Source: Desulfurococcales archaeon (GTDB taxonomy: Archaea; Thermoproteota; Thermoprotei_A; Sulfolobales; Desulfurococcaceae). From it: 38,969 bases of DNA. Shown piece after piece: positions 541-38,969 of the stretch. Each line of letters begins with the position of its first letter. Position 1 is the stretch's first letter. The translations under genes were made by a program, and so were the position numbers. Below the pieces are notes generated by a model. The model had not been told where the DNA came from, did no database searches, and worked only from the letters and a program-made list of their open reading frames with translations. Location of the stretch: assembly GCA_027028545.1 (NCBI GenBank), contig JALVIT010000051.1:1-38969 (forward strand). Direction: 5' to 3'.

Positions 541-906
541 TTGTTTGACGAACTAATAGATATACTCGGATTCCTTGGAGCACTTGGAGACTACAGCTAT
601 ATAGATAGACTTGGAAATGCAATAGATGAATCGACGATGATAGAATCACTGAAAGATGCCATTAGAATGTATCATACAGTACTAAATAGATGTAAAAATA
701 ACTGCTATGAGGTCAATGAGGGAGAATATATTGTATGTGTAAGGGTTGAACCAGATAAGCTTGAGGAATCCTTAAATAAACTATTAGCTATGATCGCGTC
801 CAAGCCTAGGATTGGGCAGGTAAAGCTCGCGAGGGAGATCGCTACAAAATCCTATGCTAGGCTTTTAAAGATAAGAAATACTAAATGTGGGGGTGGTTCT
901 ACGTGA
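541..906 (+). CDS. csa5: Csa5, small subunit (Cas11-type) of the I-A Cascade
   Basis: A 121-residue protein, starting at TTG with GTGAGGG seven bases upstream. It is predicted all-helical, with an N-terminal LIDILGFLGALGDYSYIDRL helix pair and a basic C-terminal helix (KLAREIATKSYARLLKIR). Csa5 is the small subunit of the archaeal I-A Cascade, where it binds along the crRNA-Cas7 filament and the displaced DNA strand. It is the first gene of the cassette and its stop overlaps the start of cas7 (GTGA at 903-906), so translation is probably coupled. Sulfolobus Csa5 is somewhat longer (~150 aa). The assignment rests on size, motif resemblance and the cas7 neighbour. Confidence 0.8.
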   Translation: MFDELIDILGFLGALGDYSYIDRLGNAIDESTMIESLKDAIRMYHTVLNRCKNNCYEVNEGEYIVCVRVEPDKLEESLNKLLAMIASKPRIGQVKLAREIATKSYARLLKIRNTKCGGGST

Positions 907-1991: not shown

Positions 1992-2002
1992 AGGGGAATA
2001 AT

Positions 2003-4121: not shown

Positions 4122-4132
4122 GGGTTTAAATT

Positions 4133-14813: not shown

Positions 14814-14867
14814 TACAGCACCGCATCTGGTAGGGAATACTTTTATCAATATGGTATGGATACTAGT

Positions 14868-14905
14868 ATGATAAATATATTCCATCCATAATATAGGAGG
14901 GGTGT
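14868..14905. promoter_or_regulatory. Divergent promoter between corrinoid protein and core MetE
   Basis: The AT-rich core GATAAATATAT (14870-14880) can serve as a TATA element on the + strand for the MetE gene, and its reverse (ATATATTTATC) on the - strand for the corrinoid/RACo pair. GGAGGGGTG (14896-14904) is the ribosome site on the + side. This would couple expression of the two divergent units. Prediction from sequence only. Confidence 0.4.
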
Positions 14906-14913
14906 ATAAGGGA

Positions 14914-15891: not shown

Positions 15892-16587
15892 ATGTTTCGA
15901 GAATATCCTTATACCCTCCATGGGTTCAAAGGGTGATGATAAAACTATACCACTACAATTATCCATGATCAATTCCATGTGGTCTCTAAGTTCATCAACA
16001 CCTATAAATGGTTGATTAAGCTTCCTAAACAATTCTATATTCCTGCCAAAACCTAGTAGTATGAAAACATATATATCTGAACCCCTCTCTCTACCCATAC
16101 GGCAAACCCTTACTAGCTTATCCTCTCTATCCTCTCCATAGTTTATAACATGGTAGAAATCGGCTCCGAGATCGATCCTCTCTTTAATCTTGTCTAATGG
16201 ATAATTCAAGCTTATGATCAAGCCTTTACGGAAAACATAACCCTTCTTCCTCAGTAATTCTAAAGCCTCCTCACTACCGATATCTTCAACGATCCCGCCC
16301 CTCCATGGCTTATCCCCCCTAAGCAGTACTAATCCATCAATACCATACTCCCGGATAGCGTTAGCGATCGATAATAGTGCTAAACGATTAATATCGTAAA
16401 GCCTCAAATGGGGGTAAACACTGAAGCCATACATGAGCTTGATATACATAGCTGTAGCAACACTAAACAAACCAGGATAACCACCGGGGCCCTCGGGAAT
16501 AGTGTAGGCATCAAAAACATCCCTACCAGCATCTAGGAGTCTATCAACATCCCTCCTACTCCATGGAACAAGCTCAAACAAATACAA
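15883..16587 (-). CDS. MetF-like methylene-tetrahydropterin reductase (short form)
   Basis: A TIM-barrel flavoenzyme-like protein of ~234 residues; bacterial MetF is ~290. The segment PHLRLYDINRLALLSIANAI followed by GIDGLVLLRGDKP matches the MetF core (His...Asp-x-Asn..., then ALRGD-P), where methylene-pterin and FAD bind. It would supply methyl-tetrahydropterin for the MtrH-like enzyme. A TTG at 16587 fits the GGAGGGGGTGG site just upstream; a GTG at 16596 would lie inside that site. The 3' end overlaps the core MetE gene by 9 nt, convergent. Some residues normally contacting FAD may be missing given the short length, so it could have a related reductase role. Confidence 0.65.
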   Translation of the reverse strand: MYLFELVPWSRRDVDRLLDAGRDVFDAYTIPEGPGGYPGLFSVATAMYIKLMYGFSVYPHLRLYDINRLALLSIANAIREYGIDGLVLLRGDKPWRGGIVEDIGSEEALELLRKKGYVFRKGLIISLNYPLDKIKERIDLGADFYHVINYGEDREDKLVRVCRMGRERGSDIYVFILLGFGRNIELFRKLNQPFIGVDELRDHMELIMDNCSGIVLSSPFEPMEGIRIFSKHLV

Positions 16588-16601
16588 ATATACCACCCCC
16601 T

Positions 16602-18313: not shown

Positions 18314-19189
<876 letters not shown>

Positions 19190-20993: not shown

Positions 20994-22109
20994 GTGAGCA
21001 CAGAAAATAGGATGTATAATAAGAGGATTTTTTATACAATACTAATAACATCCATCATAGTAACTGCATTCCTCGCTTCATATATTCTCCTAACTAATAG
21101 GGTATCGCATCAAAACCCCGTAGTTAGTCCTACAACTAAAACAACAACATATACTACACCACCAAATCTTATTACAAACAGACCATCTATTCCCAGGGTT
21201 TCGATGTTATATAAAACAGCATTCTCGGAACCTCTTAATCGGTTATCTACGCAACTTATCAATGGTTGTCTAGATATACCTAGAACATATAGGTATAGAT
21301 GTCTACCCGATATAGAGAAGTTGCTCTCAAGATATAGGATAGGAATAAATCTTAATAACCCCACCTCATTAGATGTATATCGTGTATTCCTTAGATATAA
21401 TGAATCGGTTATAGATTATGTGGCCTACTTTGGGAAGAATTATGATTATATCATGCTCAGTTTGAAGAATGGAGAACCATATAGCTTCTATAAAGTTTAT
21501 ACATGGGGGGAGTTCAATAATACTGTTAAGGGCTTTAACCCTGAAAAATACATGACTTACAGCATAAATTACGTGGCGGAACTATTATATAATACGACGG
21601 GGATAAACCTATCACACTATGGCGAACCATACATATTATACAAGAATCTATTTAGAAACATAAAGAGTGAAAGATATGGATACTTTAATGAAATATCATA
21701 TATGATTGGTTTCAAAATCGATGATCACGATGTACTTGTTGCTAGCAGTCCCCCTTATTTCAGGCTAAGTGTATATTTCTTTATCCAGTATAATGATAAA
21801 AACGTGATGGTCGGTTATAAAAGGAATCATAATCCTCCAGTTCTCAGAGATAACATACTTGAAGGGAAGAAATGTAGCTTCGATCTGAGTGGAACACTAG
21901 ATTCTATATTGAAATCGAAGATAATAAGATTAAATGTACTAGAGTCTAAGGATATATACTTCATAAAACCTCTAAAGGAAGACTTTTACTATGCACCGGG
22001 TCGGTTGGTTAAACTTACGGCTAGAACACCTTCCAGTAGCTATATGGTATTAGTATTATTTGACCTAAGTAGTTGTGCCTTATATGATTATGTAGCTGCA
22101 AGACAATAA
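20994..22109 (+). CDS. Membrane-anchored extracellular protein, unknown function
   Basis: A 371-residue protein with a short basic N-terminus, one hydrophobic segment (FYTILITSIIVTAFLASYIL, residues ~13-32) serving as anchor or uncleaved signal, then a Thr/Pro-rich linker (SPTTKTTTYTTPPN). The rest is a soluble extracellular domain of mixed composition with several N-glycosylation sequons (NES, NNT, NTT, NLS) and a few cysteines (INGCLDIP, YRCLPDI, GKKCSFD, SSCALYD). GTG start with strong GGGGGAG upstream. Not a family I recognise. It is followed after a few bases by another extracellular protein gene, so the two are likely co-transcribed. Confidence 0.7.
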   Translation: MSTENRMYNKRIFYTILITSIIVTAFLASYILLTNRVSHQNPVVSPTTKTTTYTTPPNLITNRPSIPRVSMLYKTAFSEPLNRLSTQLINGCLDIPRTYRYRCLPDIEKLLSRYRIGINLNNPTSLDVYRVFLRYNESVIDYVAYFGKNYDYIMLSLKNGEPYSFYKVYTWGEFNNTVKGFNPEKYMTYSINYVAELLYNTTGINLSHYGEPYILYKNLFRNIKSERYGYFNEISYMIGFKIDDHDVLVASSPPYFRLSVYFFIQYNDKNVMVGYKRNHNPPVLRDNILEGKKCSFDLSGTLDSILKSKIIRLNVLESKDIYFIKPLKEDFYYAPGRLVKLTARTPSSSYMVLVLFDLSSCALYDYVAARQ

Positions 22110-22141
22110 CATTTGAATTGGGGTGGTTCATAATAAATAGG

Positions 22142-23584
22142 ATGATATACGTGTTGCTGATATTATTAGTAGTTATAGCTTCAACCAGTTTAACACAATT
22201 ATATGCTCAATGGAGCAGTGTCGTTAATGCTAGGATCCTGGCTGTATATCCATGGATGCAAACGCCCCATGGATTGTTTATCCAAGATCTAAACGGTGAT
22301 GGAGAGTATGAGTTAATCACCATGATCTATGGGCCTACCGGCATCTATACATTGGCTGTTATGGATCTAGTTAATGGTTATACCTATACTTATGATACGT
22401 TTCATCTATATAATGAAACACCCTATATAATATCCTATACTATATATAATAGGGAGATACTTGTTTTAATTCAAGCTTCCCAATATGACCCATTCCTCAA
22501 TTCAAGCACGATAATTATAAAGTTATTTGTTATTGGTATGAGGGATTCAAGACTTAATTTAATATATTCTAAAACATATCCTACAATCAGCCTTGATGGA
22601 ATGATAGTAACTGTATATAGTAATCCTATACCATCGATAAGTGTTGGAAAATATATTATTTTCAGGGGGTATCCATATAGTTTCATAGTAGATTCTGAAA
22701 ATGATTTCTCTATTGTTGAAAAGATACCTATGGTAACAAATAATGGTATAAGTATTCATCTGAATGAGAGATTAACATATCTTGAATCGAAACATATATT
22801 CGTAGTGTCATTAGGTGGATACATCATAAATATTACCGGGGATAATTTGAATATAATAAACATCACCGATTTTATAGTAGATGAATATGGAGATGGGAGA
22901 TATGGTGTGAAAAGTATAAGTATCAGGAGTGAGGCAATATCCTTCTTAGAGAACACCTTACTATACTCCGTATCCTATATTATAAGCAGTATTAAACCAT
23001 CCAATAACGAAGAGTTAATAAATAGAACAATTCTACTAACTATTAAGAATAACCATGTGATTAGAGATCTAAAACTACCGTCCACATATCGACCCATACT
23101 AGCTAGGAATGACATCATAATTATGGATATAGAAAATAATGGTGTAAAAATATTCAAATATAGAAACAACACACTCCATACACTATACAATATCAAGCTC
23201 AGAGAAGCTATTGAACCAGTAAATATTTTTAACAATGATACCAATAGAACATTATTATTCATCAGTACTCGTTATATCGTATTGATATGGATGTTTGGGG
23301 ATAATATTTCAGTTATTGAACTACCAACGAAAATATTTACTAATATGACCAACATATATCCTCAGTACTCCATATCTTATATTAGTAACGATCGTATGAT
23401 CATTTATACAATACATCATGAAATAAGACTTATAGGTCGTAAGGGCTCGGTTCGTGGCTATATAGTTGAGTATAGCCTAAATACAAATAAATTATATCTA
23501 TTAGACGAATGTATTTATACACCCATGCTCCTATTAGTATCTACTATGATAATAATGTATTTCTTAAAGAAAAGAATATCCTAG
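22142..23584 (+). CDS. Extracellular beta-propeller-like protein with C-terminal membrane anchor
   Basis: About 480 residues. N-terminal signal peptide (VLLILLVVIASTSLTQLYAQ), a large beta-rich extracellular part with sequons (NIT, NNT, NDT, NIS), and a C-terminal transmembrane helix with a basic tail (MLLLVSTMIIMYFLKKRIS). Near the N-terminus, FIQDLNGDGEYELITM matches the Asp-x-Asn-x-Asp-Gly calcium loop of FG-GAP/VCBS-type propeller blades. Later blades are degenerate. The ATG at 22142 directly precedes the hydrophobic core; a TTG at 22118 in the same frame adds eight residues. The ribosome site (GGGGTGG, 22120-22126) could serve either. It is likely the second gene of a unit with the preceding one. 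Confidence 0.7.
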   Translation: MIYVLLILLVVIASTSLTQLYAQWSSVVNARILAVYPWMQTPHGLFIQDLNGDGEYELITMIYGPTGIYTLAVMDLVNGYTYTYDTFHLYNETPYIISYTIYNREILVLIQASQYDPFLNSSTIIIKLFVIGMRDSRLNLIYSKTYPTISLDGMIVTVYSNPIPSISVGKYIIFRGYPYSFIVDSENDFSIVEKIPMVTNNGISIHLNERLTYLESKHIFVVSLGGYIINITGDNLNIINITDFIVDEYGDGRYGVKSISIRSEAISFLENTLLYSVSYIISSIKPSNNEELINRTILLTIKNNHVIRDLKLPSTYRPILARNDIIIMDIENNGVKIFKYRNNTLHTLYNIKLREAIEPVNIFNNDTNRTLLFISTRYIVLIWMFGDNISVIELPTKIFTNMTNIYPQYSISYISNDRMIIYTIHHEIRLIGRKGSVRGYIVEYSLNTNKLYLLDECIYTPMLLLVSTMIIMYFLKKRIS

Positions 23585-24176: not shown

Positions 24177-27100
24177 ATGTCTAGTCTGGTCTCTAAAACA
24201 CTCTATATTATAGTCTTAATCCTTCTAATACTAAGTCTCACATCATCGATGGCATCAGCATATAATATTGAGGATTCCATGAGGGGAAGAATATATAGGT
24301 ACGATAAACTATTCCATAACTCCCTAGGCTGGAGTTTCGCACGGTTTAACAAGACTGTGCTCGATGCATTAATTAATGATGTTATACCCCCAAATGGTAG
24401 ACAGTATGACCCATATGTTGAGAAGCTGTTTTGGGAGGGATTTGTTCCTAGCGAGGCTTTCAACGGCTATTACTCCAAGCTATTGTTCGAGAAGCTGATC
24501 CCTGAAAACGTTAGTGATGGATACTATTACGAAATGTTTTGGAGATACATTATAGGTGAGGGGTTCCGGAAATACTTCATAGGTGAAGATGCGTCACCAA
24601 GGATAAGTATGGAGGGGTTCCAATACTACTATAATAAGTTATTCGGCGAGCTAATACCGGAGAACGTTAGTGATGGATACTACTACGAGATACTATTCTA
24701 TAAGCTATACTACTATAACATATGGAACTACCAGAAGATCCTAGCCTATACAGCCTACTATACACCATACAGCTATGTAGCGGGGATACTCACAAGGATC
24801 GATATGGAGAAATACCTACAATCGCTAAACACTACCGTTCCAAATAATGAACCGGTTATAGAGTCTAGCGAATGGGAGATACCTACTGGATGGCTATACG
24901 TTAAACTACTATCACCCTACGGACCCATTGAAGGAGCTACAGCGTCTATAATGACAGCATCATACTGTATGGGCTATGGTAGGTGTGGATGGTATTCGAT
25001 GGGCACGATAATGACGAATAGCAGTGGTGAGGCAATGATAAGGGTTCCAGCCGGCGAATACATGTTGAGGTTCTCTAATATAGTTTATGGTGAGACACAG
25101 ACAGTGGTGGTGAGAGCTAATGAGACGACAAACATCACACTATTACTGGGAGTAGTCAAAATAACACTATACGATATGGACGGTTATCCAATGACTGGTC
25201 TAAGCATAGACATCTATACACAAAATACGGGACCTACCGGAGAACCCGTTACGGGTTCAGAGATCAGTGTGGTCTCTCTGGGTAGTAATGGAACATTTAC
25301 GGGGTTCTTCATACCGGGAACATATATGGTTAAACCACTAGTCTACGGCCTCGGAGACTTCTACTTAACAGATATAGTCGCTGAACCAGGTGCTATTAGG
25401 ACGTATTTCTACACACTCGAAGCATTACAGGTGAACTTCATACCGCAACTACCTGTCTCAGTTACCGATCTCTATGTCTATATAGAGGTTAGATCAACGC
25501 TAAGCGGCTATGGCGAAACATATTATAGCGATGATAACGGAGTTGTAAACTTCTGGGTTAAACCCGGAACATATATTATAGAGATTAAGAGCATAAGCTC
25601 AGGCGGCTTATACTTCGGTTCATGGGTGTTTGGAGGACTAGTATATACTGTAAATGCCTATCCCAATGGACCTGTTAACGTCTACTATCAGCTCGGAGTC
25701 TTCGAGTATTCTCCGAGCGGTGTTATAGACTATACTCTTATACCATATGATGTATATGTGGTCCATGGATGGCCATTGATTAATGAGTCGGAATTCATCG
25801 ATACAGTTTATCTATTCCCAGGCGATAGGATCGCTTTACCTCCCGGATACTATGTATTTACACCGAGGCTTGGATACGGTTCTAAGAACTATAGTTTTGC
25901 AGTATATGCTACACCGACAACATATTATCAATACGTTGACACACTACCCGTGGGATACGTTAATGTTTCAACTATATATAACGGTTCTTTAGTCTACAAA
26001 ACATATGATATATTCTACCTTGATAACTATGTTAGAACTGGGTTCTCAGATACATTAATACCATTACTCCCCTACAACTACACTATACTAGTGAATAATA
26101 TCGGTTATCCAAACGTATACTACGCAAATATAACCAGTGGATCCATAACAACGATCACGATAAACCTTGGAAGAATACATGTTATAGCCAGATCATTTAA
26201 TGGTACAAAGCTTTCAGAACCCATACCAATATATCTATATGTATATAATGGTACAGACATATTATTCGATCAACTAGTTACATATACATGGACCAGTAAT
26301 GAGGAGGACTTCTTCGTCCTACCAGGTAGATATGCACTGGTAGTACCAGGTATAAACTTCTCCTACTACTGGTGGTTTAATGTTGGATATGGTGAGACTA
26401 TAGTAGACTTAAACGTTACAGAGGCAGGGATCATAAATGAGACGTTCAACCTTGGAAGACTTCTAGTCAATATATCGGTGTACGGACTACCTGAAGATAC
26501 GAGGGTTAGAACAGGCTACAACTACTTCGTATTAGCAGAGCAGGAATACTATAATGGAACACCATATATAGGGAGAAATATAGAAGAGTATTACTTCAGC
26601 TATGCGCCAACAAGCTTCCAGATAGAACTGACTAGAGGGACATATGCTGCATATATTGGAGAATACTATAATGGTGAATACCTACCATTTAATGGTACAA
26701 TAAGATACGATGTAACTATTAAGGAGAATGGTTTAACTGTTATAAACTATATGTTGAACCTCATAGAACTTCATCTAGTAGCTGGAAACTCTACACCAGT
26801 TATGGGTGAATACATCGACATATACCGTATCGTTGACGGCGAACTAGACTACTATGCTTATGTAAAGACAGATGTTAACGGTAAGGCATATCTAGCATTA
26901 CCTAATGGAACATATATGTTCAGTATATCGACTACGGAGGGAACACAGAACTTTGGTCCATTCAATATAACTCAGCCATACACGAATATAACACTGAGGT
27001 ATCCATCAGCACTAGTGAGGATCCATGGTGTTGGACCGAATGGTTATCCAGCAGGCGGTGTTTCTTTAAGAATAGTTCCAGAGGGATATTATTATGGCTA

Positions 27101-30100
27101 CTATGCTGAACTAGATCCTAGTGGTTATACAGAGATAATAATACCTGTAGGAAACTATACCGTAATTCCATCTCTAAGCTATCCCAATGGTATACCATTA
27201 ACCATTAATAGATCAGATGCTACAATTGACTTCTACATAAACTTCTCACTAGTTAGAGTCCACTTCAATATACCTGCTAGGAGAAGCATCTACCTATGCG
27301 TCTACCCGGAGGGAACCTATACGTATAACTCGAGATACCTAACCATCGACAACAACACAGTCTACTACCTATTCCTACTACCAGGAAACTATACGGTATT
27401 CCTACCAGGTTTGTCGACGAGCATACATACATGGAGCACCTATAGCTGGTTTGGATATGGTGCTGAAGAACATGTTGTTCTAGGAAACAACACGATCGTT
27501 GACATAGGCTTCACACTATCCATAATATCGTTCATGCTGAATACAAGCTATGATCCCGATAATGGTCTACACACATTACTCTTCGGATACGATCCATCAC
27601 AGCCCGATCCGTATATAGGATATATGGGTATGAGGTATCTAAGTAATTCATATGACGCTGTAGAATACATAGTAACCCCTGGAGTATACTCACTGATACT
27701 CCCAGGACCGCCCTTCGACTATGATTGGCTAAGTGATCACGGAGTGTATCTATGGGAGCTGGATGGTCTAGGATATTCATGGGTTATAAATGTGAGTGGA
27801 AGCGATGTTGTAAATATACCATTTACACCTGGCGCATTAATCCTGTACTATCCGGGGATTGGGTCAAGCCTCTACACAGAACAATATACTACAGCCAGCT
27901 ACCAGATCTACGTCTCTAATACTAGTACACTAGTTACTTCCGGAACCCTTAGTGAGGGTGAGTATTCGGTAATAGTATTGACGCCGGGCAACTACACGAT
28001 CATACATGGAGGTGTAGTAGAGGTATCATTAGCCCCTGGAGAGGCTAAGCTAGTGAATATAACACCTAGTGGTATATTGTTCAAACTACTTGGTCCGGAT
28101 GGTGAGCCTGTAACTGATACATATGTCTATCTTTATAGCCGTGACCTATCAACATATATAGGTTATGAGGTAACCGATGATAATGGTGTAGCCTACTTCG
28201 TAAACGTGAATCCCGGAGACTATGCGATCGTGTTGAAGGGATACAACTATTTCTACTCACCATATGATGCTAAATATTATGAGCGTAGAAGCCTAGGCTA
28301 TGGAGCGGTGATCAATGTATCATATGTTGAGGGATTAGTATCCTTAAACTATACGTTGTCGAGGATAGATGTGCATATTGATTCGGTTGAGGGAGATGTT
28401 TCAAGGGCACAGCTAATACTATACACACCCAGCTGGAACGTGTTAAAGGGTGAACTCACCGATAGCTCCGGTATGGCGCATTTCTACGTAACGCCTGGGA
28501 GCTATCTAGTTGTTATTAGGGGATTAGATTATGGTAGATATGACCACTACTATACGGGCTTCAGCTATTATCCATTATTCGGCTATGGAGAGGTGCTGGG
28601 TAATCTAACCATAGATAATGCATCGAGTGTATTACTGGAGGAGAGTTTGGGAACTATAAGTGTTAATATATCATCTATCGATGGAGAATATATTTATGGA
28701 ATCTATGTGCAACTATATGATTCAAACCTATACTACATTGTTGCTCACAGATACTACAACGGAGCACCAATATCCTTCCACATAACGGGTGGAAACTATA
28801 CAGTATTCTTCTCAATAGATGGTAAACCATACATCTACAGTGTCTACGTCGACTATGGAGGATATGAGGAAGTAGAACTAGTACTGACGAGAATATTTGT
28901 ATATGTAAAAGCGCCATTGGAGGATATTAGTCTAGCCGGGGTACGTGTGAGGATATACTATAATACGACAACACCTACGGGCGAATACTATCAGAAATAT
29001 ACCGATTCAACGGGATACGTGAGATTCTATGTTCCAATTAATATTAACGTGGTTGTAGCTGTTGCCTCGGGATATCTAGACTATAAAGTACTATATACTA
29101 ATACATCACACACAGTATACTTCACGGTATCCATACTAGTCGTGCATGCAGAATCATTCTATGGACCATTAGAAGATATTGGTTTCAACGTATATACTCT
29201 CGATTATACCTATTGGGACTACGAATCGACGAATTCAGAGGGTAATGCAGTATTCCTATTGACGAATGGAACATATATTGTAAAGTATGCATCATCATAC
29301 GGTTATGAGACTATAGGAGAATATCAGACACTAGTAGTTGTTGGATGGAATACTACAGTATATCATAACATATCCGTACCCATGCTGACGATAAATGTTG
29401 AGAGAGTAACTGGAGCGTCAGGGCTCCTAATATTGCATGTATATACTGGCACCACGTATAGGGATTCTCTATACATTTCTGGAGATGGTATGGATGTATT
29501 ATTCTTCCCTGGAACATATAGCTTATTAACATCTAGGTATAGCAACGGCAGGGATACAAACTATACATTCACGATAGAATTCGGGGAACATTTACAGGTT
29601 CTATACAAGCTGAGCGGCTTGTTATTTAGATTACTGAAGCCAAACGGTGAACCATTAAACTACATGGAGGATGAACAGCATCAAAACAGACCCTTCGTAT
29701 ACCTATATACCGTTGAGGATTCAACACTATACTATTCAAACACAGGCTATCTCAACACCAGTGGAGAGGTGTTCTTCACTGCACTACTGAATGGTACATA
29801 TGTTGTCAGAATGCCGGGATACTATAGCTACTACGGTATACCGAGGGATCTAGAGGTAAATGTTACATCGGATAGCATGGCATTATATGAATACACCATC
29901 GGTGGATTAAAGATAAAACTTGTTGGGAACACGGATGTATCCAATAGATACATTATGCTATATGGAATTGTAGACTCCTCAGAGTATTATCTTGGAACAT
30001 GGTATACTGATAGTAATGGAGAGGTCATAGTATACTTAACCGGTGGAACATATGCAGCATATATAGAGAATCTGGGAACAGTTTATGGATTGGAGGTTGT

Positions 30101-33100
30101 GGATGGAGAATGGCTGAATAGATCATACACTCTATCACCAGTAGATCTAGCAGTAGTATCCGTATCATGGACGCCGAGTAATCCAACCGATGGAGACACA
30201 ATGCTTGTATCAGCCAATATAACTAATTACGGACCTGGACACGCATTATCAGACTTCACCGTAAAGTTCTATCTAAACGGCACACTAGAATACACCGCTA
30301 TAGTGCACGGACTACTAGCAGGATACTATACAGTTGTGACAGCACCATTAACAGCCATGGCTGGCACGGATGAGGTTAGAGTCGTAGTAGATGAGGAGGA
30401 GTCTCAGGTTGATGAGAATAGGAGTAATAATGAGATGACGGTATACATACCGGTGTTAAAGCCCGATCTAACTGTTAGCATAGTGAACTTTACCGGAACA
30501 CTCCTCGATGGTGGAACGGTTACGGTTAATATCAATGTGACGAATCTAGGACCTGGAGCCATTAATCATAGATTCAGCGTAAACATATTCTACGATGGAA
30601 AACTCGTATCGACAATATACATTGATAGGCTTGGAGTTAATGAATCAGTTATAGTATCTAGAGAATTCGAAGCACTAGGTGGGGATAGAACTGTTCAGGC
30701 AGTAGTGGATCCCGAGAATGAGGTGCCGGAGATTCGTGAGGATAATAATGTTGATTCAAAGACTCTAAGCATACCAGCACCAGACCTAGCCGTGATAGAT
30801 GCTGTCCTCTCAGCACCTACAATGGTTGATGGAGAGATAGCGATCCTAAACGTTACATTGAGGAATCTCGGAGCTACAACACTAAACTCCTTCACCGTAA
30901 GGCTATATATAGATGGAGAATATATGGCTCTAAACTATATATCGGGAATGGAGAACAATAGTGAGGTAAACATTCTATTCTACCTAGTATTAAAGGGTGG
31001 AACACACACCTACACGATAAAGGTTGATGCTGAGGAATATGTCGGCGATCTAAATAGGGCAAACAACATATTTACAGACTCCTACACAATACCAGCACCA
31101 GACCTAGCCGTTATGGGTGTAGTCTTCCAGCCGGAAACACCCGGCTCTGGCGAACTAATCACAGTAACCATAAATGTCACAAACATCGGTGTAGGAGCTA
31201 CTAAGGCTAACTATGCTGTAGAGCTACGCGTGGATGGAAAAGTTAAAGCTACACAATACATAACTGAAGACATGGATCCGGGTGAAACAGTTACAGTAAT
31301 ACACCAATTCACATTGACTGGTGGAACACATGAGGTGAAAATAATTGTTGATCCAAACAAATTCGTCGGAGATGTCAATAGAGCAAACAACATCTACGTT
31401 AAGAATATAACGGTGCTCTACAGCGACCTAGAAGTAGTAAATGTAACCATAGAGCCGGGACCATACTACAACCTAGAGGACAAGAACCTAACCATAACCA
31501 TTAGGAATAATGGACCCGGACTAATCAATACAACATTCTACGTATCGATCTTCGACAACGATGAATTCATAGAACAGATACCGGTGCATGGACTCGGTGT
31601 AAACGACACCATAACGCTATATACAACGATAACGATGAAGACAGGGCTACGCAACATAACAGTTATAGCTGATGACCACTACCAGAGACTAATAGGGTCA
31701 AAATACATATATGGACACCACAGTGAAATACCAGATCCATTCCGTTCCAATAATGTATACTCGATAACCGTGAACGTATTAGGGCCCGACCTATCAGTCA
31801 TAAGTGCAGAGACAATACCAACACAGCCAAATGCATGGGAGGACTTCTACATTAACATAACAGTTACGAATAACGGAGATACACCGAGTACTGAGGTATT
31901 CCTAATAGTTGATGTTGGAACAAATAGATTCATAGATTCGGTATCAGCACTAGATCCAAACGAGACCGTCTCAGTACTAGTACCTATCAAAGGTGTTGAA
32001 CCTGGAACATATAATGTACACGTAGTTGTCAACCCATTCAAGGAGATAGAGGAGTACAACTATGCTGATAACGAGTACTCATTCACACTGATAGTTCCAG
32101 CACCCGATCTAACAATAACAAACGTAGTACCATTATCGCCAATGACCCCTCTGAATCCAGGAGATAGATTCACCGTTAACATTACGGTTAAGAATCTAGG
32201 AGCTGGATTTAGAAGGGATGTACGTATTGAAGCATACTCAGCTGCAGGATCATCTATTGGAACAGGATATATCTTTGGAGGTATGAGCTCCAGCGAGGAG
32301 ATCAACTTAACGCTGGAACTGGTGGCTGTACCGCCAAGTCTTAGAGGGGTAGTTATAGTAGTTGATCCAACGGATGAGATCTATGAGCTGGATGAAACAA
32401 ATAATAAGATGGTGTTCAATGGACCTAGAGTTAATGCATTACTCCTAGGTGCCACAAGCTATGACCTTATAAGGATCTATCGTGAAGACTTCAATATTAC
32501 ACTGACAAATATAGGATCTACAACCTTAAACCTGACAAATATAGTGTTTAATTCATCCCTAGCAACAATAGTATCCATCACAGATACGGTATTATCACCT
32601 GGTGAATCTGCTAATGTGTTAATACATGTATCTACAAGTAATGTAGCTGGAATAGGGTTCGCAGCGGAATTCATAGTTGAGACAAATACTACATTTAACA
32701 TATCAAGCGATATAACAGTAAGAGTCCATGATATCGAAGATCTATTCAGTCTAAACATATACGATACTGAATTGGTAGGGGGTGTTATCAATACAAGCCT
32801 TGGCGCAGTCGAACACCTAGGATTATATCCATCATACTCGACGATACTGGGTGTTAATGGGTTAAACGTTGAATTATCCGGTAATGGGACAATATTTGTA
32901 TCTGAGACAAGCTTCCTATTATCTCGTGAGAGGAGTCTACTCCTAGACTTTAGAAACTCGTCGATAGCTGAGGGGCACTATGTATTAGTATTCAATGTAT
33001 CTGCACCCGGAATACCATATTATAAGACATATATGATACATGTATATGTTAGCAGGGATCCGTATCTGACAATACTATCACCGTCATCGATGAATGTAAC

Positions 33101-36100
33101 CCTAGCATCCACAACACTCATAATATCAGGTATTGCTTCAGCACCGATTAATGGCTCGATATACTTCCGCGAGGTATCATCACCATCATGGACTAGAATA
33201 CAGTTTAACCAGTTTGGTAGGAAGAGGAGATTCACACTACAGATCGGTGGATTAATGGATGATTCGAGCTATGAATTCTACATAGTTGCAGACTCCGGAT
33301 ACGGTATAACGGTCACTAGCATATATCATGTAAATGTTACAGTATCGGTGACGTTTAAAGATCATGAAGTAAACGTCACAATCCTACGCGACTACAACCA
33401 GGTAATACATATATCCGTCGTCAACAATGATCCAGTATTCTCACACAACGTCTATGCTAAGATAATAAACACTGATCCAGAAATAGTGCTCGACTTCGTG
33501 GGCCCAGGATCTATTGATGGTGTATTAACCGTTTCAAGCAGTTCCGAAGCAACTATAACATTAGCTATACACGCTGCAGATGCTATAAAGATGAACTATA
33601 CAGTAACAGCCATGCTGGTAAACCTAGATACAAATGCAACCGACTACATGATCATACACATAACGGTTGTAGAGCCTAGATTCGATGTCGAAGTAGACTA
33701 TATAGGTATGGATAACTATACACTAGTGCAAACATATAGATTGGTAAACCATGGAGATACGATAACAGACCTAAGCGTCCACCTATCTGGGCCGGTTGCC
33801 AGCTTCGCCTACATATTCCCAACGATGAACCATGTAAGACTTGAAGCAGACTCAGCAATGTACTTCTATGTAATACCAGTGCTTGGAATGCTTCCCGAAG
33901 ACCCCGCACTACGTAATGGAACAATAATCATAGAGACAAAGGATCCGAGGACTATGGAGACAAGTATAAGACCGATCAACCCACCACCCGGTACCAAGGT
34001 ATATGGTGTACCTACAGAATCTCTACGTGGAAGGGCTGAATCTAAGGATTGGTATTGTACGAATAGACCCAATGTAAATACTAAGGTTATAATATCGATC
34101 GATCCCCCATTAAACGAGACAACCAATCAGACAATAATTAATGCTACATTAACAATATACTTCCATCCAACAGGATTCCCAGAACCACCTAAACCACACG
34201 ATGGTGTGATCACGGTCAATGGTATAACCGTGTATTCATGGACGAACAGTATCCCCGAGGGATATGTAACTGTTCCATTACCCTCAAGCATATTTACCTC
34301 AATGCCGTCTAGCGGTGCGAAATACGAGTTAAACATAGGAGTGCATACAAAGCATATGAATGGTGGACACTACGTTGTAGCAACCGATTATAAGGTCGAG
34401 ATAACAACATCCGGTGGAACATTCTACGTGGTGGCTGGTAGCTTCGATGAAGCCAGGAATGCTGTGAGACACCTATCCAAACCTAATAACGACCAGGTGA
34501 AGCCTAAGGAGTGTGATAAAAAGGTTAAGATGCCTGCATGGCTACAACAATTAATAACGATGCTTAAGGGATCTAAGTCCCTTGATATAAAGAACCTCCC
34601 AGTACCGGAGGCTCTACTAAAGCTTGTTAAGACCAGTGGACAGGCTAAGATCGATGTATCATTCGGTATTGAAGTTAATCCAACGCCATCGAAGATAACC
34701 ATCAGCGGATCAGGATCTGTTGATATAAAGATCGGTATATATGGTGGTGAGGGTGGAGTAAAGGTTGAGGGTTCATGGAGTATTAAGAACTGTAAATGGG
34801 GATTCGACGGGGCAACGGCGACATTCACGGCTAAGGGTGGATATAGATTCGACTTAGACATACCTGCCGAATGGGTTAAATGGCTGCCTGATGCAGGTGA
34901 AGATGCACCAGTAACAATTCATGCCCACTTCTACATCGGGATCCAATCAGCTGTCGTAGAGCTTACAGATCATCTAAAGATCAAGATGATAAGGTCATTA
35001 CTGGTAATCGTGGAGCTTAAGGGTAAGGCTGAGATAAAGGTCGGTAGAAGAGTTACACTCACAGCTGAAGCTGAAGCATCACTAACCGAGGGATATAAGA
35101 ATGGAGACTTCTACGCCCAGTTCAAGCTAGGATTCAGCGGAGACATTAAGGTAGACCTATCACTATTCAGTGTATCAGCGTCTGGATCCTTCGGGTTCAA
35201 ACTGATATGGAATGGATATGAATGGGTTAGGAAATCCTACGACGACCCAGGTATAATGATCTATAGATACCAGCTACACAATATACCGTTAATGTATCCA
35301 ACTCTAACCGATACATCGACAATGCATAGCACAGGTTTATCGACAAGCTACTCGCCTGGATACGGATTATATGCATCATGGATATCGAGCGACGGAGTAA
35401 ACACTTATGTAATGCTAAGCCGCTACAACAACACAGAATGGACAACGCCGGAAACACTGCCGTTTACAACTGGAAACTATGTATCAACAATATCCCTAGG
35501 ATTCACAGATTACCCAGGAATACTAGTGCTCGAGATGCCCGAGGTAAATGAATCTATGAGCATAGACGAACTGGTGGATTCACTATATAGGGGTAGGCTA
35601 TACTATACAGAATACATAGATGGATCATGGACAACACCAGTTGAGTTGGCATCAAACGTATCATTATCGGCTGATGCAGTAGCTATGGGTTCAGAGGCTA
35701 TAGCTGCATGGGTTCTCAGAAGCAACCACACCTACACAGTTATGACTATGATGTATAGTGAGGGTGCATGGAGCCCGCCAACAATGATACCAGGATCAAC
35801 AACTCCAGCCGGATACAACATCTACGATGTAGCCGTATCGTATATCAATGGCAAACCAATAGTTCTATGGGCTACAGAGATCTATAAGGATAACGAGACA
35901 AGTATAACAGCTATAAAGTATTCTATACTCGAAGAAACCGGATGGAGCCAGCCAGAGATAATGCCTGGAACATGGGGTGCTACATCCGTCGATGTAGCAT
36001 CAAGCGGAGATAAGGTATTCATAGCATGGAGCTCTAGCAGTGGAATACTCGGACTAGTAAGATATGATGAATCAACAATAGTTAATGTAACGATCGGTTA

Positions 36101-38969
36101 TGGATTCGGACCAGAGATAAACATACTTGGCTCAACAGTAGCCATAGCCGCTGGAAACATTTTCCAGCCCGGAGACATAGTGTTATATGCGGTATCACAG
36201 GATCTATCGAGGATCGTTGCGAGAAACTTAACGATGGATAACTACGTTGATAAAGAGTATAGCTTAGTATATGCACCCAATATCTTTACAGGTGTTATGT
36301 GGAGGCGCGCACCTGAGACACCGCAGGATCTACTCGATCAGTATAAGCTGTATGCTGCCGGAATAGTATATGTTGAACTATCAAACATCTCAATAACGGG
36401 ATTTGATGTATTAACTAAGGATATTGTGGAAGGAAACCCGCTAGAATACACGTTGAACATAACTAATACTGGTGGAGAAGGGAACGTAACGATAAACACG
36501 TATCTAAACGATACATTAATAGATACAAAAGAGGTGGCAATACCAGCTAATACAACATATGTATTCAACAACACGATCATACCAAGCGATTCGGGAACCT
36601 ATATCCTAAGGGTGGAGATAGAGACGCCGCCATCATCGATAAGCACTGTAACCAGCGTTGAGAGGATAATATATGTGAAGAGATTAATCAATAACACAAA
36701 CCTCATAGACGGCGCGGTCATCGGTGGAACATCTAATTTATCAATAATGTTAAACGGTATGGAGCCTGTCAATGTAAACGTCTATATTAACGGTTCACTA
36801 TTTGCATCAGAAATCGGAGTGGTGTCCAATACTACTTTAACACTAAACCTATTAGGGTTCTCGGATGGACCATTGAACATAACGATCACAGCGTTAACAT
36901 ATAATGGATTAGCTGATGATACAGCATCATATACTGTATTCCTCGATAAGACACCGCCAGTATTAATGATCTATACACCATTCAATAACACATACGTTAA
37001 AGGAATAATATATGTCAACTTCACAGCCTACGACACCTACTACAGCTTACCAGAAGCTCCGAAGCTATACATTAACGGAGCATTATATAATGTGACCAGC
37101 ATGCCTGGAGACATATACGTATATGAGCTCAACACAACCCTATATGCCGATGGAACGGTGTTGAACATAACGATCACCGTAACGGATATATCGGGTAAAA
37201 CGACCAGGTCAACACTATTCGTAACGGTAGATAATACACCGCCAACAACAACCCATAACTCTACGAAGACGTGGTATAATAGCAATGTAACGATACAGCT
37301 AACACCAAGCGATCCGGTATCTGGTGTAGCTACGACATACTATAGGATTGATGGTGGAGAATGGATTGAGGGTACAATAGTATATATACCAGCACCAAGC
37401 GATCACAGCAACGACGGCATACACTACGTAGAATTCTACAGTATAGATAATGCTGGAAACATAGAACCCATACACAATATAACAATAGGTATAGACACGT
37501 TGGAAGCAGAAATAACATCAAACATAGCCAACAACACATACTTCTCCGGCGGAGTTGTCAGCTTCTTCTTCTACATATCAGACTATGGATCAGGACTTAA
37601 AGAGGCGTGGGGATACTTCGATGGCGGATTACAGCGTCATAAGACATTCTCAGGAGAAAACCAGTACACTATGAGCTTCCAGGGATTAAACCTTGGATAC
37701 CTAAGGGAGGGTATGCACTGGTTCAAGATCGTGGTTGACGATATGGCTGGTAATAGGAGGGAGTATGTCCTAGTATTCTATGTCGATAAGACACCGCCGA
37801 CAGCAGAGATCATGACGCCGCCGGATGGTGCAGTCGTATCCGGGACGGTCAATATAACATTCAACTACACAGACAATCTATCACCAGTAATAGCTATGCT
37901 GACAATAGATGGGGAAACGATAAACGTGACTGGAAACTACAGCTACCTACTGGACACAACACAGTATCCAGATGGAGAGCTAACCATAACATTAACAGCT
38001 ACAGATTATTCTGGACGCTCAACCAGTGTATCAATAACGATAGTCATAGACAATACAGCACCGGAAATAACCATAACATCACCAACCAATGGCTCATACA
38101 TATCCGGCATAATCAACGTAGAGTACAGTATTGACGAACCACATCTAGACCAGGCATGGCTAATCATTGGAAGCCTAAGAGTGAATATTACTGGTACAAC
38201 AAGCTATACACTAAACACATCGATACTCCCCGACGGAGTATACACCCTAACAATATATGCAAACGATACACTAGGACATGAAGCAACGGCCGAGATCACA
38301 ATAATAATCGATAACACACCGCCAACGGCTGAGATTGCATCACCGGTCAACGGAACGTATGCCTCCGGACTACTAACGGTGCAGTTCAACTACAACGATT
38401 CAAACCTATATAGAGCATTACTATACATCGACACCGGATACGTAGATGTAACCGGATCATACAGCTATATCATAGATACAACACAGTACACCGATGGATG
38501 GCACATCATTAAGCTATATGTTGAAGACGAAGCCGGGAACACTGCAGAGTATAGTATAATGGTATTCTTCGACAACACACCACCAACAGCTATAATAGTA
38601 TCACCAGTCAATGGCTCGGTAATATCTGGTAATGTGTCCATAATAGTTGATTATAGTGATGCCAGCCTAGATAAAGCATACCTGATAATAGATGGCTTTA
38701 TAACCGATATAACTGGAACATACAGCTATCTTCTAGATACGACAACCTTAGATGATGGAGAACACAGTATAACACTACTCGTAACTGATAAAGCAGGAAA
38801 CAATGCATCATATACAATCACCGTTATAATCGATAATACGCCGCCGGTAGCAGAGATGATGAGTCCTGTTAATGGCTCATATGTATCCGGTATAGTCAAT
38901 ATCACCGTAAACTACAGTGATCTAACACTACATGAAGCACTACTGGTAATAGGTAACGAGACGATCAAT
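24177..38969 (+). CDS. Giant modular cell-surface protein (open at window end, at least 4931 residues)
   Basis: A single reading frame from the ATG at 24177 to the last base of the window; I followed the frame over long stretches and at the end and saw no stop. Residues 1-28 are a signal peptide (LYIIVLILLILSLTSSMASA). Then: a Tyr-rich region with a 52-residue tandem duplication (~60-200); ~18 beta-sandwich units with PG-x-Y motifs (~245-1985); about seven CARDB-like units (~1990-2745); mixed Ig-like domains (~2750-3440); a Lys/Gly-rich beta region (~3445-3685); a propeller-like part (~3690-4025); further Ig-like domains; and an 87-88-residue repeat array from ~4537. Sequons (NVT, NIT, NGT, NYT) are very frequent and Cys is rare. 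This suits a glycosylated S-layer stalk or adhesin. The C-terminus and anchor lie beyond the window. Confidence 0.9.
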   Translation, partial: MSSLVSKTLYIIVLILLILSLTSSMASAYNIEDSMRGRIYRYDKLFHNSLGWSFARFNKTVLDALINDVIPPNGRQYDPYVEKLFWEGFVPSEAFNGYYSKLLFEKLIPENVSDGYYYEMFWRYIIGEGFRKYFIGEDASPRISMEGFQYYYNKLFGELIPENVSDGYYYEILFYKLYYYNIWNYQKILAYTAYYTPYSYVAGILTRIDMEKYLQSLNTTVPNNEPVIESSEWEIPTGWLYVKLLSPYGPIEGATASIMTASYCMGYGRCGWYSMGTIMTNSSGEAMIRVPAGEYMLRFSNIVYGETQTVVVRANETTNITLLLGVVKITLYDMDGYPMTGLSIDIYTQNTGPTGEPVTGSEISVVSLGSNGTFTGFFIPGTYMVKPLVYGLGDFYLTDIVAEPGAIRTYFYTLEALQVNFIPQLPVSVTDLYVYIEVRSTLSGYGETYYSDDNGVVNFWVKPGTYIIEIKSISSGGLYFGSWVFGGLVYTVNAYPNGPVNVYYQLGVFEYSPSGVIDYTLIPYDVYVVHGWPLINESEFIDTVYLFPGDRIALPPGYYVFTPRLGYGSKNYSFAVYATPTTYYQYVDTLPVGYVNVSTIYNGSLVYKTYDIFYLDNYVRTGFSDTLIPLLPYNYTILVNNIGYPNVYYANITSGSITTITINLGRIHVIARSFNGTKLSEPIPIYLYVYNGTDILFDQLVTYTWTSNEEDFFVLPGRYALVVPGINFSYYWWFNVGYGETIVDLNVTEAGIINETFNLGRLLVNISVYGLPEDTRVRTGYNYFVLAEQEYYNGTPYIGRNIEEYYFSYAPTSFQIELTRGTYAAYIGEYYNGEYLPFNGTIRYDVTIKENGLTVINYMLNLIELHLVAGNSTPVMGEYIDIYRIVDGELDYYAYVKTDVNGKAYLALPNGTYMFSISTTEGTQNFGPFNITQPYTNITLRYPSALVRIHGVGPNGYPAGGVSLRIVPEGYYYGYYAELDPSGYTEIIIPVGNYTVIPSLSYPNGIPLTINRSDATIDFYINFSLVRVHFNIPARRSIYLCVYPEGTYTYNSRYLTIDNNTVYYLFLLPGNYTVFLPGLSTSIHTWSTYSWFGYGAEEHVVLGNNTIVDIGFTLSIISFMLNTSYDPDNGLHTLLFGYDPSQPDPYIGYMGMRYLSNSYDAVEYIVTPGVYSLILPGPPFDYDWLSDHGVYLWELDGLGYSWVINVSGSDVVNIPFTPGALILYYPGIGSSLYTEQYTTASYQIYVSNTSTLVTSGTLSEGEYSVIVLTPGNYTIIHGGVVEVSLAPGEAKLVNITPSGILFKLLGPDGEPVTDTYVYLYSRDLSTYIGYEVTDDNGVAYFVNVNPGDYAIVLKGYNYFYSPYDAKYYERRSLGYGAVINVSYVEGLVSLNYTLSRIDVHIDSVEGDVSRAQLILYTPSWNVLKGELTDSSGMAHFYVTPGSYLVVIRGLDYGRYDHYYTGFSYYPLFGYGEVLGNLTIDNASSVLLEESLGTISVNISSIDGEYIYGIYVQLYDSNLYYIVAHRYYNGAPISFHITGGNYTVFFSIDGKPYIYSVYVDYGGYEEVELVLTRIFVYVKAPLEDISLAGVRVRIYYNTTTPTGEYYQKYTDSTGYVRFYVPININVVVAVASGYLDYKVLYTNTSHTVYFTVSILVVHAESFYGPLEDIGFNVYTLDYTYWDYESTNSEGNAVFLLTNGTYIVKYASSYGYETIGEYQTLVVVGWNTTVYHNISVPMLTINVERVTGASGLLILHVYTGTTYRDSLYISGDGMDVLFFPGTYSLLTSRYSNGRDTNYTFTIEFGEHLQVLYKLSGLLFRLLKPNGEPLNYMEDEQHQNRPFVYLYTVEDSTLYYSNTGYLNTSGEVFFTALLNGTYVVRMPGYYSYYGIPRDLEVNVTSDSMALYEYTIGGLKIKLVGNTDVSNRYIMLYGIVDSSEYYLGTWYTDSNGEVIVYLTGGTYAAYIENLGTVYGLEVVDGEWLNRSYTLSPVDLAVVSVSWTPSNPTDGDTMLVSANITNYGPGHALSDFTVKFYLNGTLEYTAIVHGLLAGYYTVVTAPLTAMAGTDEVRVVVDEEESQVDENRSNNEMTVYIPVLKPDLTVSIVNFTGTLLDGGTVTVNINVTNLGPGAINHRFSVNIFYDGKLVSTIYIDRLGVNESVIVSREFEALGGDRTVQAVVDPENEVPEIREDNNVDSKTLSIPAPDLAVIDAVLSAPTMVDGEIAILNVTLRNLGATTLNSFTVRLYIDGEYMALNYISGMENNSEVNILFYLVLKGGTHTYTIKVDAEEYVGDLNRANNIFTDSYTIPAPDLAVMGVVFQPETPGSGELITVTINVTNIGVGATKANYAVELRVDGKVKATQYITEDMDPGETVTVIHQFTLTGGTHEVKIIVDPNKFVGDVNRANNIYVKNITVLYSDLEVVNVTIEPGPYYNLEDKNLTITIRNNGPGLINTTFYVSIFDNDEFIEQIPVHGLGVNDTITLYTTITMKTGLRNITVIADDHYQRLIGSKYIYGHHSEIPDPFRSNNVYSITVNVLGPDLSVISAETIPTQPNAWEDFYINITVTNNGDTPSTEVFLIVDVGTNRFIDSVSALDPNETVSVLVPIKGVEPGTYNVHVVVNPFKEIEEYNYADNEYSFTLIVPAPDLTITNVVPLSPMTPLNPGDRFTVNITVKNLGAGFRRDVRIEAYSAAGSSIGTGYIFGGMSSSEEINLTLELVAVPPSLRGVVIVVDPTDEIYELDETNNKMVFNGPRVNALLLGATSYDLIRIYREDFNITLTNIGSTTLNLTNIVFNSSLATIVSITDTVLSPGESANVLIHVSTSNVAGIGFAAEFIVETNTTFNISSDITVRVHDIEDLFSLNIYDTELVGGVINTSLGAVEHLGLYPSYSTILGVNGLNVELSGNGTIFVSETSFLLSRERSLLLDFRNSSIAEGHYVLVFNVSAPGIPYYKTYMIHVYVSRDPYLTILSPSSMNVTLASTTLIISGIASAPINGSIYFREVSSPSWTRIQFNQFGRKRRFTLQIGGLMDDSSYEFYIVADSGYGITVTSIYHVNVTVSVTFKDHEVNVTILRDYNQVIHISVVNNDPVFSHNVYAKIINTDPEIVLDFVGPGSIDGVLTVSSSSEATITLAIHAADAIKMNYTVTAMLVNLDTNATDYMIIHITVVEPRFDVEVDYIGMDNYTLVQTYRLVNHGDTITDLSVHLSGPVASFAYIFPTMNHVRLEADSAMYFYVIPVLGMLPEDPALRNGTIIIETKDPRTMETSIRPINPPPGTKVYGVPTESLRGRAESKDWYCTNRPNVNTKVIISIDPPLNETTNQTIINATLTIYFHPTGFPEPPKPHDGVITVNGITVYSWTNSIPEGYVTVPLPSSIFTSMPSSGAKYELNIGVHTKHMNGGHYVVATDYKVEITTSGGTFYVVAGSFDEARNAVRHLSKPNNDQVKPKECDKKVKMPAWLQQLITMLKGSKSLDIKNLPVPEALLKLVKTSGQAKIDVSFGIEVNPTPSKITISGSGSVDIKIGIYGGEGGVKVEGSWSIKNCKWGFDGATATFTAKGGYRFDLDIPAEWVKWLPDAGEDAPVTIHAHFYIGIQSAVVELTDHLKIKMIRSLLVIVELKGKAEIKVGRRVTLTAEAEASLTEGYKNGDFYAQFKLGFSGDIKVDLSLFSVSASGSFGFKLIWNGYEWVRKSYDDPGIMIYRYQLHNIPLMYPTLTDTSTMHSTGLSTSYSPGYGLYASWISSDGVNTYVMLSRYNNTEWTTPETLPFTTGNYVSTISLGFTDYPGILVLEMPEVNESMSIDELVDSLYRGRLYYTEYIDGSWTTPVELASNVSLSADAVAMGSEAIAAWVLRSNHTYTVMTMMYSEGAWSPPTMIPGSTTPAGYNIYDVAVSYINGKPIVLWATEIYKDNETSITAIKYSILEETGWSQPEIMPGTWGATSVDVASSGDKVFIAWSSSSGILGLVRYDESTIVNVTIGYGFGPEINILGSTVAIAAGNIFQPGDIVLYAVSQDLSRIVARNLTMDNYVDKEYSLVYAPNIFTGVMWRRAPETPQDLLDQYKLYAAGIVYVELSNISITGFDVLTKDIVEGNPLEYTLNITNTGGEGNVTINTYLNDTLIDTKEVAIPANTTYVFNNTIIPSDSGTYILRVEIETPPSSISTVTSVERIIYVKRLINNTNLIDGAVIGGTSNLSIMLNGMEPVNVNVYINGSLFASEIGVVSNTTLTLNLLGFSDGPLNITITALTYNGLADDTASYTVFLDKTPPVLMIYTPFNNTYVKGIIYVNFTAYDTYYSLPEAPKLYINGALYNVTSMPGDIYVYELNTTLYADGTVLNITITVTDISGKTTRSTLFVTVDNTPPTTTHNSTKTWYNSNVTIQLTPSDPVSGVATTYYRIDGGEWIEGTIVYIPAPSDHSNDGIHYVEFYSIDNAGNIEPIHNITIGIDTLEAEITSNIANNTYFSGGVVSFFFYISDYGSGLKEAWGYFDGGLQRHKTFSGENQYTMSFQGLNLGYLREGMHWFKIVVDDMAGNRREYVLVFYVDKTPPTAEIMTPPDGAVVSGTVNITFNYTDNLSPVIAMLTIDGETINVTGNYSYLLDTTQYPDGELTITLTATDYSGRSTSVSITIVIDNTAPEITITSPTNGSYISGIINVEYSIDEPHLDQAWLIIGSLRVNITGTTSYTLNTSILPDGVYTLTIYANDTLGHEATAEITIIIDNTPPTAEIASPVNGTYASGLLTVQFNYNDSNLYRALLYIDTGYVDVTGSYSYIIDTTQYTDGWHIIKLYVEDEAGNTAEYSIMVFFDNTPPTAIIVSPVNGSVISGNVSIIVDYSDASLDKAYLIIDGFITDITGTYSYLLDTTTLDDGEHSITLLVTDKAGNNASYTITVIIDNTPPVAEMMSPVNGSYVSGIVNITVNYSDLTLHEALLVIGNETIN
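24495..24806 (+). repeat. 52-residue tandem duplication near the N-terminus of the giant protein
   Basis: LIPENVSDGYYYE occurs at residues ~107 and ~159, exactly 156 nt apart (24495 and 24651), with similar Tyr/Phe-rich sequence around both copies (YYSKLLFEK and YYNKLFGE before them). The DNA of the copies differs at third positions, so the duplication is not recent. Confidence 0.7.
24890..30130 (+). repeat. Array of ~18 PG-x-Y beta-sandwich units
   Basis: Within the giant protein, units of ~75-105 residues each carry a turn of the form NG/PG-(T,N,D,S)-Y followed by alternating hydrophobics. Examples are IPGTYMVKP (~25315), KPGTYIIEI (~25563), LPGNYTVFL (~27379), NPGDYAIVL (~28212), TPGSYLVVI (~28494) and FPGTYSLLT (~29508). 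Many are preceded by a (S/T)-(D/S)-x-NG-x-(A/V)-x-F strand. This resembles carboxypeptidase-regulatory-like or prealbumin-like domains. Two gaps of ~475 nt (25844-26322, 28790-29265) suggest units with a degenerate motif. Confidence 0.65.
30138..32430 (+). repeat. About seven CARDB-like units
   Basis: PDL-type unit starts occur at ~30148 (VDLAVV), 30469 (PDLTV), 30782 (PDLAVI), 31100 (PDLAVM), 31426 (SDLEVV), 31786 (PDLSVI) and 32104 (PDLTIT), mean spacing ~326 nt (~109 residues). Each has N-(x)-TNxG-type strands (INVTNLGPG, VTLRNLGA, INVTNIGVG), a middle G-x-H/R turn and a final Glu/Asp-x-N-x-x-NN motif (EIREDNN, LNRANN, ELDETNN). This is the CARDB (cell-adhesion-related, APHP/DUF11-like) pattern. 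Confidence 0.75.
35280..36250 (+). repeat. BNR/sialidase-like beta-propeller segment
   Basis: Four Trp-(T/S)-x-Pro turns, each after a short acidic/glycine lead-in, occur at TGG positions 35439 (EWTTPETLP), 35628 (SWTTPVELA), 35769 (AWSPPTMIP) and 35943 (GWSQPEIMP), 47-63 residues apart. Between them lie strands such as IAAWVLRSN, PIVLWATEI and VFIAWSSSS, typical of blade strands that report a value. The segment sits between Ig-like parts of the giant protein and may bind glycans or a partner. Confidence 0.55.
37785..38969 (+). repeat. Regular 87-88-residue Ig-like tandem repeats, continuing past the window
   Basis: Unit starts marked by a D-(K/N)-T-(P/A)-P motif lie at 37785, 38049, 38310, 38571 and 38832, i.e. 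periods of 264, 261, 261 and 261 nt. Each unit has S-P-x-NGS-x-x-SG, then LxIxG-x-x-xxVTGxYSYxLDTT and DGxHxIxLxxxDxAGN, as in Ig-like/Big-type adhesin domains. Copies are similar but not identical at the DNA level. Looser versions begin upstream near 36950. Confidence 0.85.

Follow-up and report, generated by a model that had tools for sequence, protein, structure and literature searches.

A single reading frame that stays open across the last 14.8 kb of the DNA analysed here raises two questions, namely whether it encodes one genuine protein and what a protein of this size would do on the surface of an archaeal cell. The window, by which we mean the whole analysed stretch of 38,969 bp, is an entire contig from an assembly of 238 contigs. 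Its largest gene begins at 24177 and, as read from the open reading frame, contains 4,931 codons without a stop up to the final base of the window.

A frame cut by the contig end and its orthologues

Since the window is a whole contig and the frame is still open at its end, the giant gene is truncated by the assembly at the 3' side. The missing part was not found in the same assembly, where searches with the tail of an orthologue (G158) and with the last 120 bases of the window revealed no contig that continues the gene. A search with residues 3401-4200 located the protein in a small number of genomes from the same family. Two of the orthologue contigs, JALWZC010000090.1 (G107) and WAON01000050.1 (G158), come from metagenome-assembled genomes (MAGs) named "Desulfurococcales archaeon". 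The gene is complete in G158 (5,362 codons) and in G135, a single-contig genome of 1.9 Mb (4,851 codons); the G107 orthologue lacks its 5' end. The window protein is 45% identical to its G158 orthologue across 4,852 residues and 36% identical to the G135 orthologue across 4,711 residues. Judged from these complete genes, the window copy should be short of about 100 to about 450 residues.

A frame of this length in a draft assembly of 238 contigs, on a contig that stops within a repeat array, could in principle be an assembly chimera or the product of a sequencing artefact. The colinear orthologues rule this out for practical purposes, since further genomes, including a closed one, have the identical module order, and dN/dS lies far under 1. 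With the order kept in other genomes and dN/dS values of 0.05-0.22 in each testable module, the open frame is not due to chance. The sequence-only reading, which described an uninterrupted and unfinished frame for a single giant, modular, secreted and sequon-rich product, is thus confirmed. The same applies to its claim that the protein is far larger than usual archaeal S-layer subunits, given that SlaA comprises 1,424 residues (PMC10903991).

That reading also pointed to the downstream sequence as the place to find a C-terminal anchor. No continuation is available in the own assembly, but an anchor is visible in three orthologues, whose tails consist of an Ig unit, a Thr/Pro-rich linker, one transmembrane helix (mean hydropathy 3.1-3.2) and a basic tail. 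From these tails we infer a membrane anchor for the window copy as well.

Several other loci were noted in the window and in the same genome. A Type I-A-like CRISPR-Cas operon (541-7765) includes Csa5 (slightly below its cut-off), Cas7/Csa2 of the DevR family (above cut-off), a Cas3-type helicase, and Cas5-, HD- and Cas6-like genes assigned by eye; the gene at 2913-4121 within it has no Pfam or NCBIfam match. The cluster at 11571-16596 encodes an MtrH-like methyltransferase, a RACo-type corrinoid reductive activator, a B12-binding corrinoid protein, a methionine-synthase-like protein and a weakly methylenetetrahydrofolate-reductase-like protein, and perhaps constitutes a corrinoid methyl-transfer pathway feeding methionine synthesis. 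The TnpB-like gene at 18332-19021 (-) encodes 229 aa that match the C-terminal half of the family model slightly below cut-off, and is probably a decayed or partial IS200/IS605-type gene. Directly upstream of the giant gene and on the same strand lie two genes (20994-23584) whose products both begin with a hydrophobic segment, one of them also having a C-terminal transmembrane segment; neither has a Pfam match, and the two are possibly partners of the giant protein. Elsewhere in the genome (L005:1141-5817), a 1,558-aa protein has an N-terminal half that, by eye, resembles solute-binding proteins; the Ig repeats that follow are related to the ones in the giant protein, and the C terminus carries a transmembrane segment.

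Module architecture of the giant protein

From the N terminus, the window protein consists of a signal peptide, a helical N-terminal domain, 20 PGxY units, seven CARDB domains, an Ig/fn3-like segment, an unnamed core, a region of long beta strands, a propeller and Ig repeats. The corresponding features are as follows.

24177..38969, +: giant surface protein gene, 3' end cut (open frame; 38,969-bp contig; colinear orthologues)
24177..24263, +: signal peptide, residues 1-29, cleavage site approximate (hydrophobic segment 4-22; both complete orthologues begin alike)
24264..24851, +: predicted helical N-terminal domain, residues 30-225 (41-46% identity to orthologues; helices in a low-confidence model only)
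24870..30083, +: 20 PGxY units, transthyretin/CnaB-like beta sandwiches, residues 232-1969 (iterated profile; fold matches for the first units)
30144..32417, +: seven CARDB domains, residues 1990-2747 (Pfam PF07705, E 2.7e-76; profile)
32418..33356, +: HYDIN/ASH-like and fn3-like segment, residues 2748-3060 (PF22544, E 6e-5, under its cut-off; fn3 by eye)
33357..34436, +: highly conserved unnamed core, residues 3061-3420 (55-57% identity to G135 and G158)
34437..35276, +: predicted region of long beta strands, residues 3421-3700 (strand pattern, low-confidence model; lowest dN/dS, 0.046)
34143..35426, +: sequon-free island, residues 3323-3750, covering the core end, the beta region and the propeller start (longest sequon-free gap, same place in four orthologues)
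35334..36356, +: predicted beta propeller, lectin/sialidase-like, residues about 3720-4060 (local pLDDT; Z about 15 to PLL/PHL; weak Pfam neuraminidase-like match)
36387..36617, +: CARDB-like domain, residues 4071-4147 (E 2.6e-4 in the window protein, weak; E 5e-15 in G135)
36687..38969, +: Ig-like repeat array, residues 4171-4931, eight units and a cut ninth, one of OmpL47 type (profile; Big_13, Big_7; NCBIfam NF047446)

Most modules named in the sequence-only reading were recovered. The signal peptide corresponds to a signal-peptide-like hydrophobic segment at residues 4-22. The CARDB module (residues 1990-2747), with seven full units, is matched by PF07705 in eight stretches well over the curated cut-off (252.7 vs. 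22.7 bits); a further, weak unit lies at residues 4071-4147. The Ig-like array, in which the profile delineates eight full units (residues 4171-4883) followed by the truncated ninth, likewise exceeds the curated Pfam cut-offs (Big_13, 65.3 vs. 27 bits; Big_7, 61.7 vs. 24.1 bits). The array of PG-x-Y sandwich units was also confirmed, but their number, put at about 18, was corrected to 20: nineteen units were detected by an iterated profile (all E <= 3e-6), and the twentieth, at about residues 575-650, is recognised by the profile in G135 (589-660) and not in the window protein. These units stay below the curated Pfam cut-offs (SpaA, 20.8 vs. 23.1 bits; CarboxypepD_reg, 17.1 vs. 32.3).

Structure prediction by segments, a check proposed in the earlier reading, succeeded in part: the first PGxY units and the propeller were matched to known folds, but the helical domain, the core and the beta region gave low-confidence models. 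The matches of the PGxY units, which cover the first units alone (those modelled with good local confidence), include a CnaB2 domain (8bdw_A, Z 10.4, 2.0 Å over 83 residues) and a TIE protein (Foldseek E 2e-15). The predicted propeller, with local pLDDT mostly 55-85 in its first part, resembles the lectin PLL3 (Z 15.0, 2.5 Å over 175 residues) and agrees at moderate confidence with the propeller recognised earlier; sialidases rank within about 2 Z units below the lectins, and so it may be of either subtype. The lectin and pilin likeness is one of fold only, at 8-20% identity and with models of mean pLDDT 40.6 and 50.3. The N-terminal domain contains recurring IPxNxSxxYYY-like motifs; it lacks a Pfam match, and a profile search of solved structures returned chance-level matches. 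The core carries the motifs DWYCTNRP and HMNGGHYVVAT. No meaningful Pfam match was found for residues 3061-3700, which span the core and the beta region, and the profile search of solved structures with the core alignment gave CARDB-type matches at the alignment end. Structure comparison of the helical domain, core and beta region gave no match, which at the low confidence of the models is not evidence of absence; the predictions of the N-terminal and core regions had two and three sequences, respectively, as input, and were mostly of low confidence. Apart from the weak neuraminidase-like fold match, no enzyme family was matched by Pfam or NCBIfam.

Conservation, distribution and glycosylation sites

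The mosaic order of the modules noted in the sequence-only reading turned out not to be recent. The order is common to several genera, and each type of unit is on average nearest to its positional counterpart in another genome. All seven CARDB units find their best match in the G158 positional counterpart (mean identity 0.50 vs. 0.30 within the protein), as do 13 of 20 PGxY units (0.36 vs. 0.23) and six of eight Ig units (0.59 vs. 0.31) in the other genome. Because the units are on average closer to counterparts elsewhere than to neighbours in the same protein, the module array is, on these comparisons, old and not a recent patchwork. The copy number of the C-terminal Ig units (13 in G158, about 7 in G135) is the only clearly variable part.

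Comparison of the G158 and G107 genes, which are 90% identical, gave a dN/dS of 0.136 overall and 0.05 to 0.22 per module, indicating purifying selection on all modules tested; the N-terminal domain is outside this test, since G107 is cut there. The beta region, at 0.046, and the core, at 0.099, have the lowest values. The propeller is among the less conserved modules (27-38% identity). The identity of the Ig array, 91% between G158 and G107 and 59% between the window protein and G158, is not below that of the rest of the protein.

The core was detected in seven of 229 genomes of the class, of which six belong to the same family (five genera) and one, from elsewhere, is a distant match; just two marginal matches were added by 398 genomes drawn across the phylum. 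The N-terminal domain occurs in G000, G135 and G158 and in three copies in G178; a single further match, outside these genomes, is marginal. Both modules are thus nearly confined to one family, in which they reach five genera including the deepest branch. In the distant case (G033, from another family), a 1,436-aa protein (L049:2257-6567, -) matches the stretch leading into the core as well as a part within it, and its T/P-rich tail has a transmembrane segment; it is possibly a compact relative of the giant protein. In G178, three contigs (L014, L026 and L047), each open end to end, carry a copy of the core; the copies have diverged, and two of them sit on deep branches. The genome probably carries three giant paralogues, with a residual possibility that the copies stem from a mixture of strains.

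On the RpoB tree, the owners of the gene are not monophyletic, and the deepest branch of the family is among them, so the assumption of a single owner clade was rejected. The own assembly yielded no RpoB, and its genome is therefore not placed in this tree; several owner genomes are incomplete. An old gene that was lost several times is the simpler reading of this distribution, and horizontal transfer is possible. Most cultured-size genomes of the family, and most of its genera, do without the giant protein, which thus is not a general need.

The dense sequons described in the sequence-only reading are equally evident: the giant protein has 137 N-x-S/T sites vs. 53 +/- 6 in shuffles (2.6 times denser), compared with 11 vs. 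15 for the 12 cytoplasmic proteins of the same window. Its longest sequon-free gap extends for 429 residues (3322-3751), and the longest gaps of three other orthologues (421, 473 and 552 residues) occur at the same place. When sites are placed at random, a gap as long as the observed one arises in no more than 3 of 5,000 trials for each protein; as the four are related, the tests are not independent. Just 29 sequon positions are common to the window protein, G158 and G135, so that the gap is retained despite turnover of the sites. Compared with the rest of the protein, the island contains about half as much asparagine and 1.6 to 2.1 times as much Lys+Arg; low asparagine accounts for part of the gap in these sequences, and may itself be the outcome of selection or of a different fold. 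The protein is probably sugar-coated and the island apparently glycan-free. The persistence of a core/beta part without N-glycosylation sites suggests a protein-protein or ligand-binding surface.

Candidate functions at the cell surface

We propose, with a probability of about 0.5, that the protein is a giant membrane-anchored, stalk-like adhesin with a glycan-free head along its shaft, its function being deduced from the modules. It would be exported via the N-terminal signal peptide and held in the cytoplasmic membrane by the C-terminal helix, from which about 40 small beta domains in a chain would extend outward, reaching ~150 nm when fully extended at ~4 nm per domain. The Ig array would lie near the membrane, and the PGxY array would serve as the outer shaft, tipped by the helical N-terminal domain. 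Partway along, the unnamed core, the long-stranded beta region and the lectin-like propeller would build a conserved head, whose core/beta part could offer the sequon-free binding surface, and the protein would adhere to other cells, glycans or surfaces past the S-layer. The proposal is supported by the signal peptide, the transmembrane anchors of the orthologues, the conserved order and the purifying selection, by the CnaB pilin/adhesin fold of the PGxY units and the lectin fold of the propeller, by the sequon enrichment with its conserved island, by the location of the two most conserved tested modules (core and beta region) within the head, and by the paucity of enzyme-family matches. The gene, its constraint, the module order, the sequon pattern and the orthologue anchors are read directly from the sequences; our confidence in the further steps decreases from the same anchor in the window copy through the extended chain, the glycan coat and binding by the head to the adhesion role. 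The long stalk with functional heads and the part in cell-cell contact or aggregate formation that the sequence-only reading suggested belong to these further steps.

The main rival reading gives the protein a structural role in the envelope, as an S-layer subunit or a stalk similar to SlaB or tetrabrachion, in which the glycan-free core would serve as a subunit contact. Desulfurococcales S-layers rest on long membrane-bound stalks, such as the 70-nm tetrabrachion stalk (PMC5744192), and these systems share with the giant protein, whose dense sequons fit such a role, a secreted, beta-rich, glycoprotein-like nature and, for SlaB, a C-terminal membrane anchor; the corresponding helix is present in three orthologues and cut off in the window copy. 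Moreover, one PGxY unit has the fold of a SlaB domain (8qox_B, Z 9.1, 2.1 Å over 84 residues), although many pilins share such matches. However, SlaB and tetrabrachion are far smaller and have a coiled-coil stalk, whereas the shaft of the giant protein is a chain of beta domains, and no coiled coil was seen by eye before the membrane helix in the orthologue tails, which pass from the Ig unit through the T/P linker into the helix. A length of ~5,000 residues, over three times that of SlaA, at least three diverged copies in one relative and the absence of the protein from most genera of the family also disagree with an S-layer role, and we consider it rather unlikely. A surface receptor or scaffold for feeding, which would capture polysaccharide, peptide or secreted enzymes and use the propeller as a sugar-binding or hydrolytic head, is less probable again. 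Lectin and sialidase propellers are indeed the top fold matches, together with the weak Pfam neuraminidase-like match, and the tetrabrachion of a related organism carries a bound protease (PMC5744192), but the limited conservation of the propeller argues against a conserved active site, and transport or hydrolase genes were not found beside the giant gene within the window.

In Gram-positive bacteria, CnaB domains strung together serve as adhesive shafts in pilins and adhesins. With such proteins (TIE protein, SpaA, BcpA) the giant protein has only the fold of its PGxY units in common, and it has no sortase-type anchor. With the PLL/PHL lectins it shares the propeller fold (Z about 15) at about 10% identity. 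VARTIG of Thermococcales is, by description, another large archaeal surface protein with Ig domains, but its C-terminal Ig domain is hypervariable (PMC8416519), whereas the Ig array of the giant protein is as conserved as the rest. Relatively few archaeal proteins in UniProtKB exceed 5,000 residues; halomucin and others of this group are similar, again by description, in size class and presumed surface location, but the named examples are euryarchaeal (PMC11573180). The literature searched contained nothing on giant or CARDB proteins of Desulfurococcales, and no description of a family with the unnamed core, helical tip and sequon-free stretch was found in open-access literature, in itself weak evidence. 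Giant modular archaeal surface proteins are thus already known, as halomucins (PMC11573180), VARTIG (PMC8416519) and tetrabrachion stalks (PMC5744192), and the present family is a lineage-specific variant.

A more specific and clearly speculative reading, which we consider slightly less probable than the structural role, is that the core and beta region constitute an undescribed family-specific head module, through which giants would pair mutually, or with a partner cell, at a constant distance from the membrane and act as a cell-cell contact device. If so, the multiplication of copies in G178 would perhaps yield several specificities. With its fixed module order, its unnamed conserved core and the conserved gap in its presumed glycan coat, this family-specific giant offers a concrete target for studying the contacts of hyperthermophilic archaea with one another or with surfaces, and for asking which of its parts does the work.
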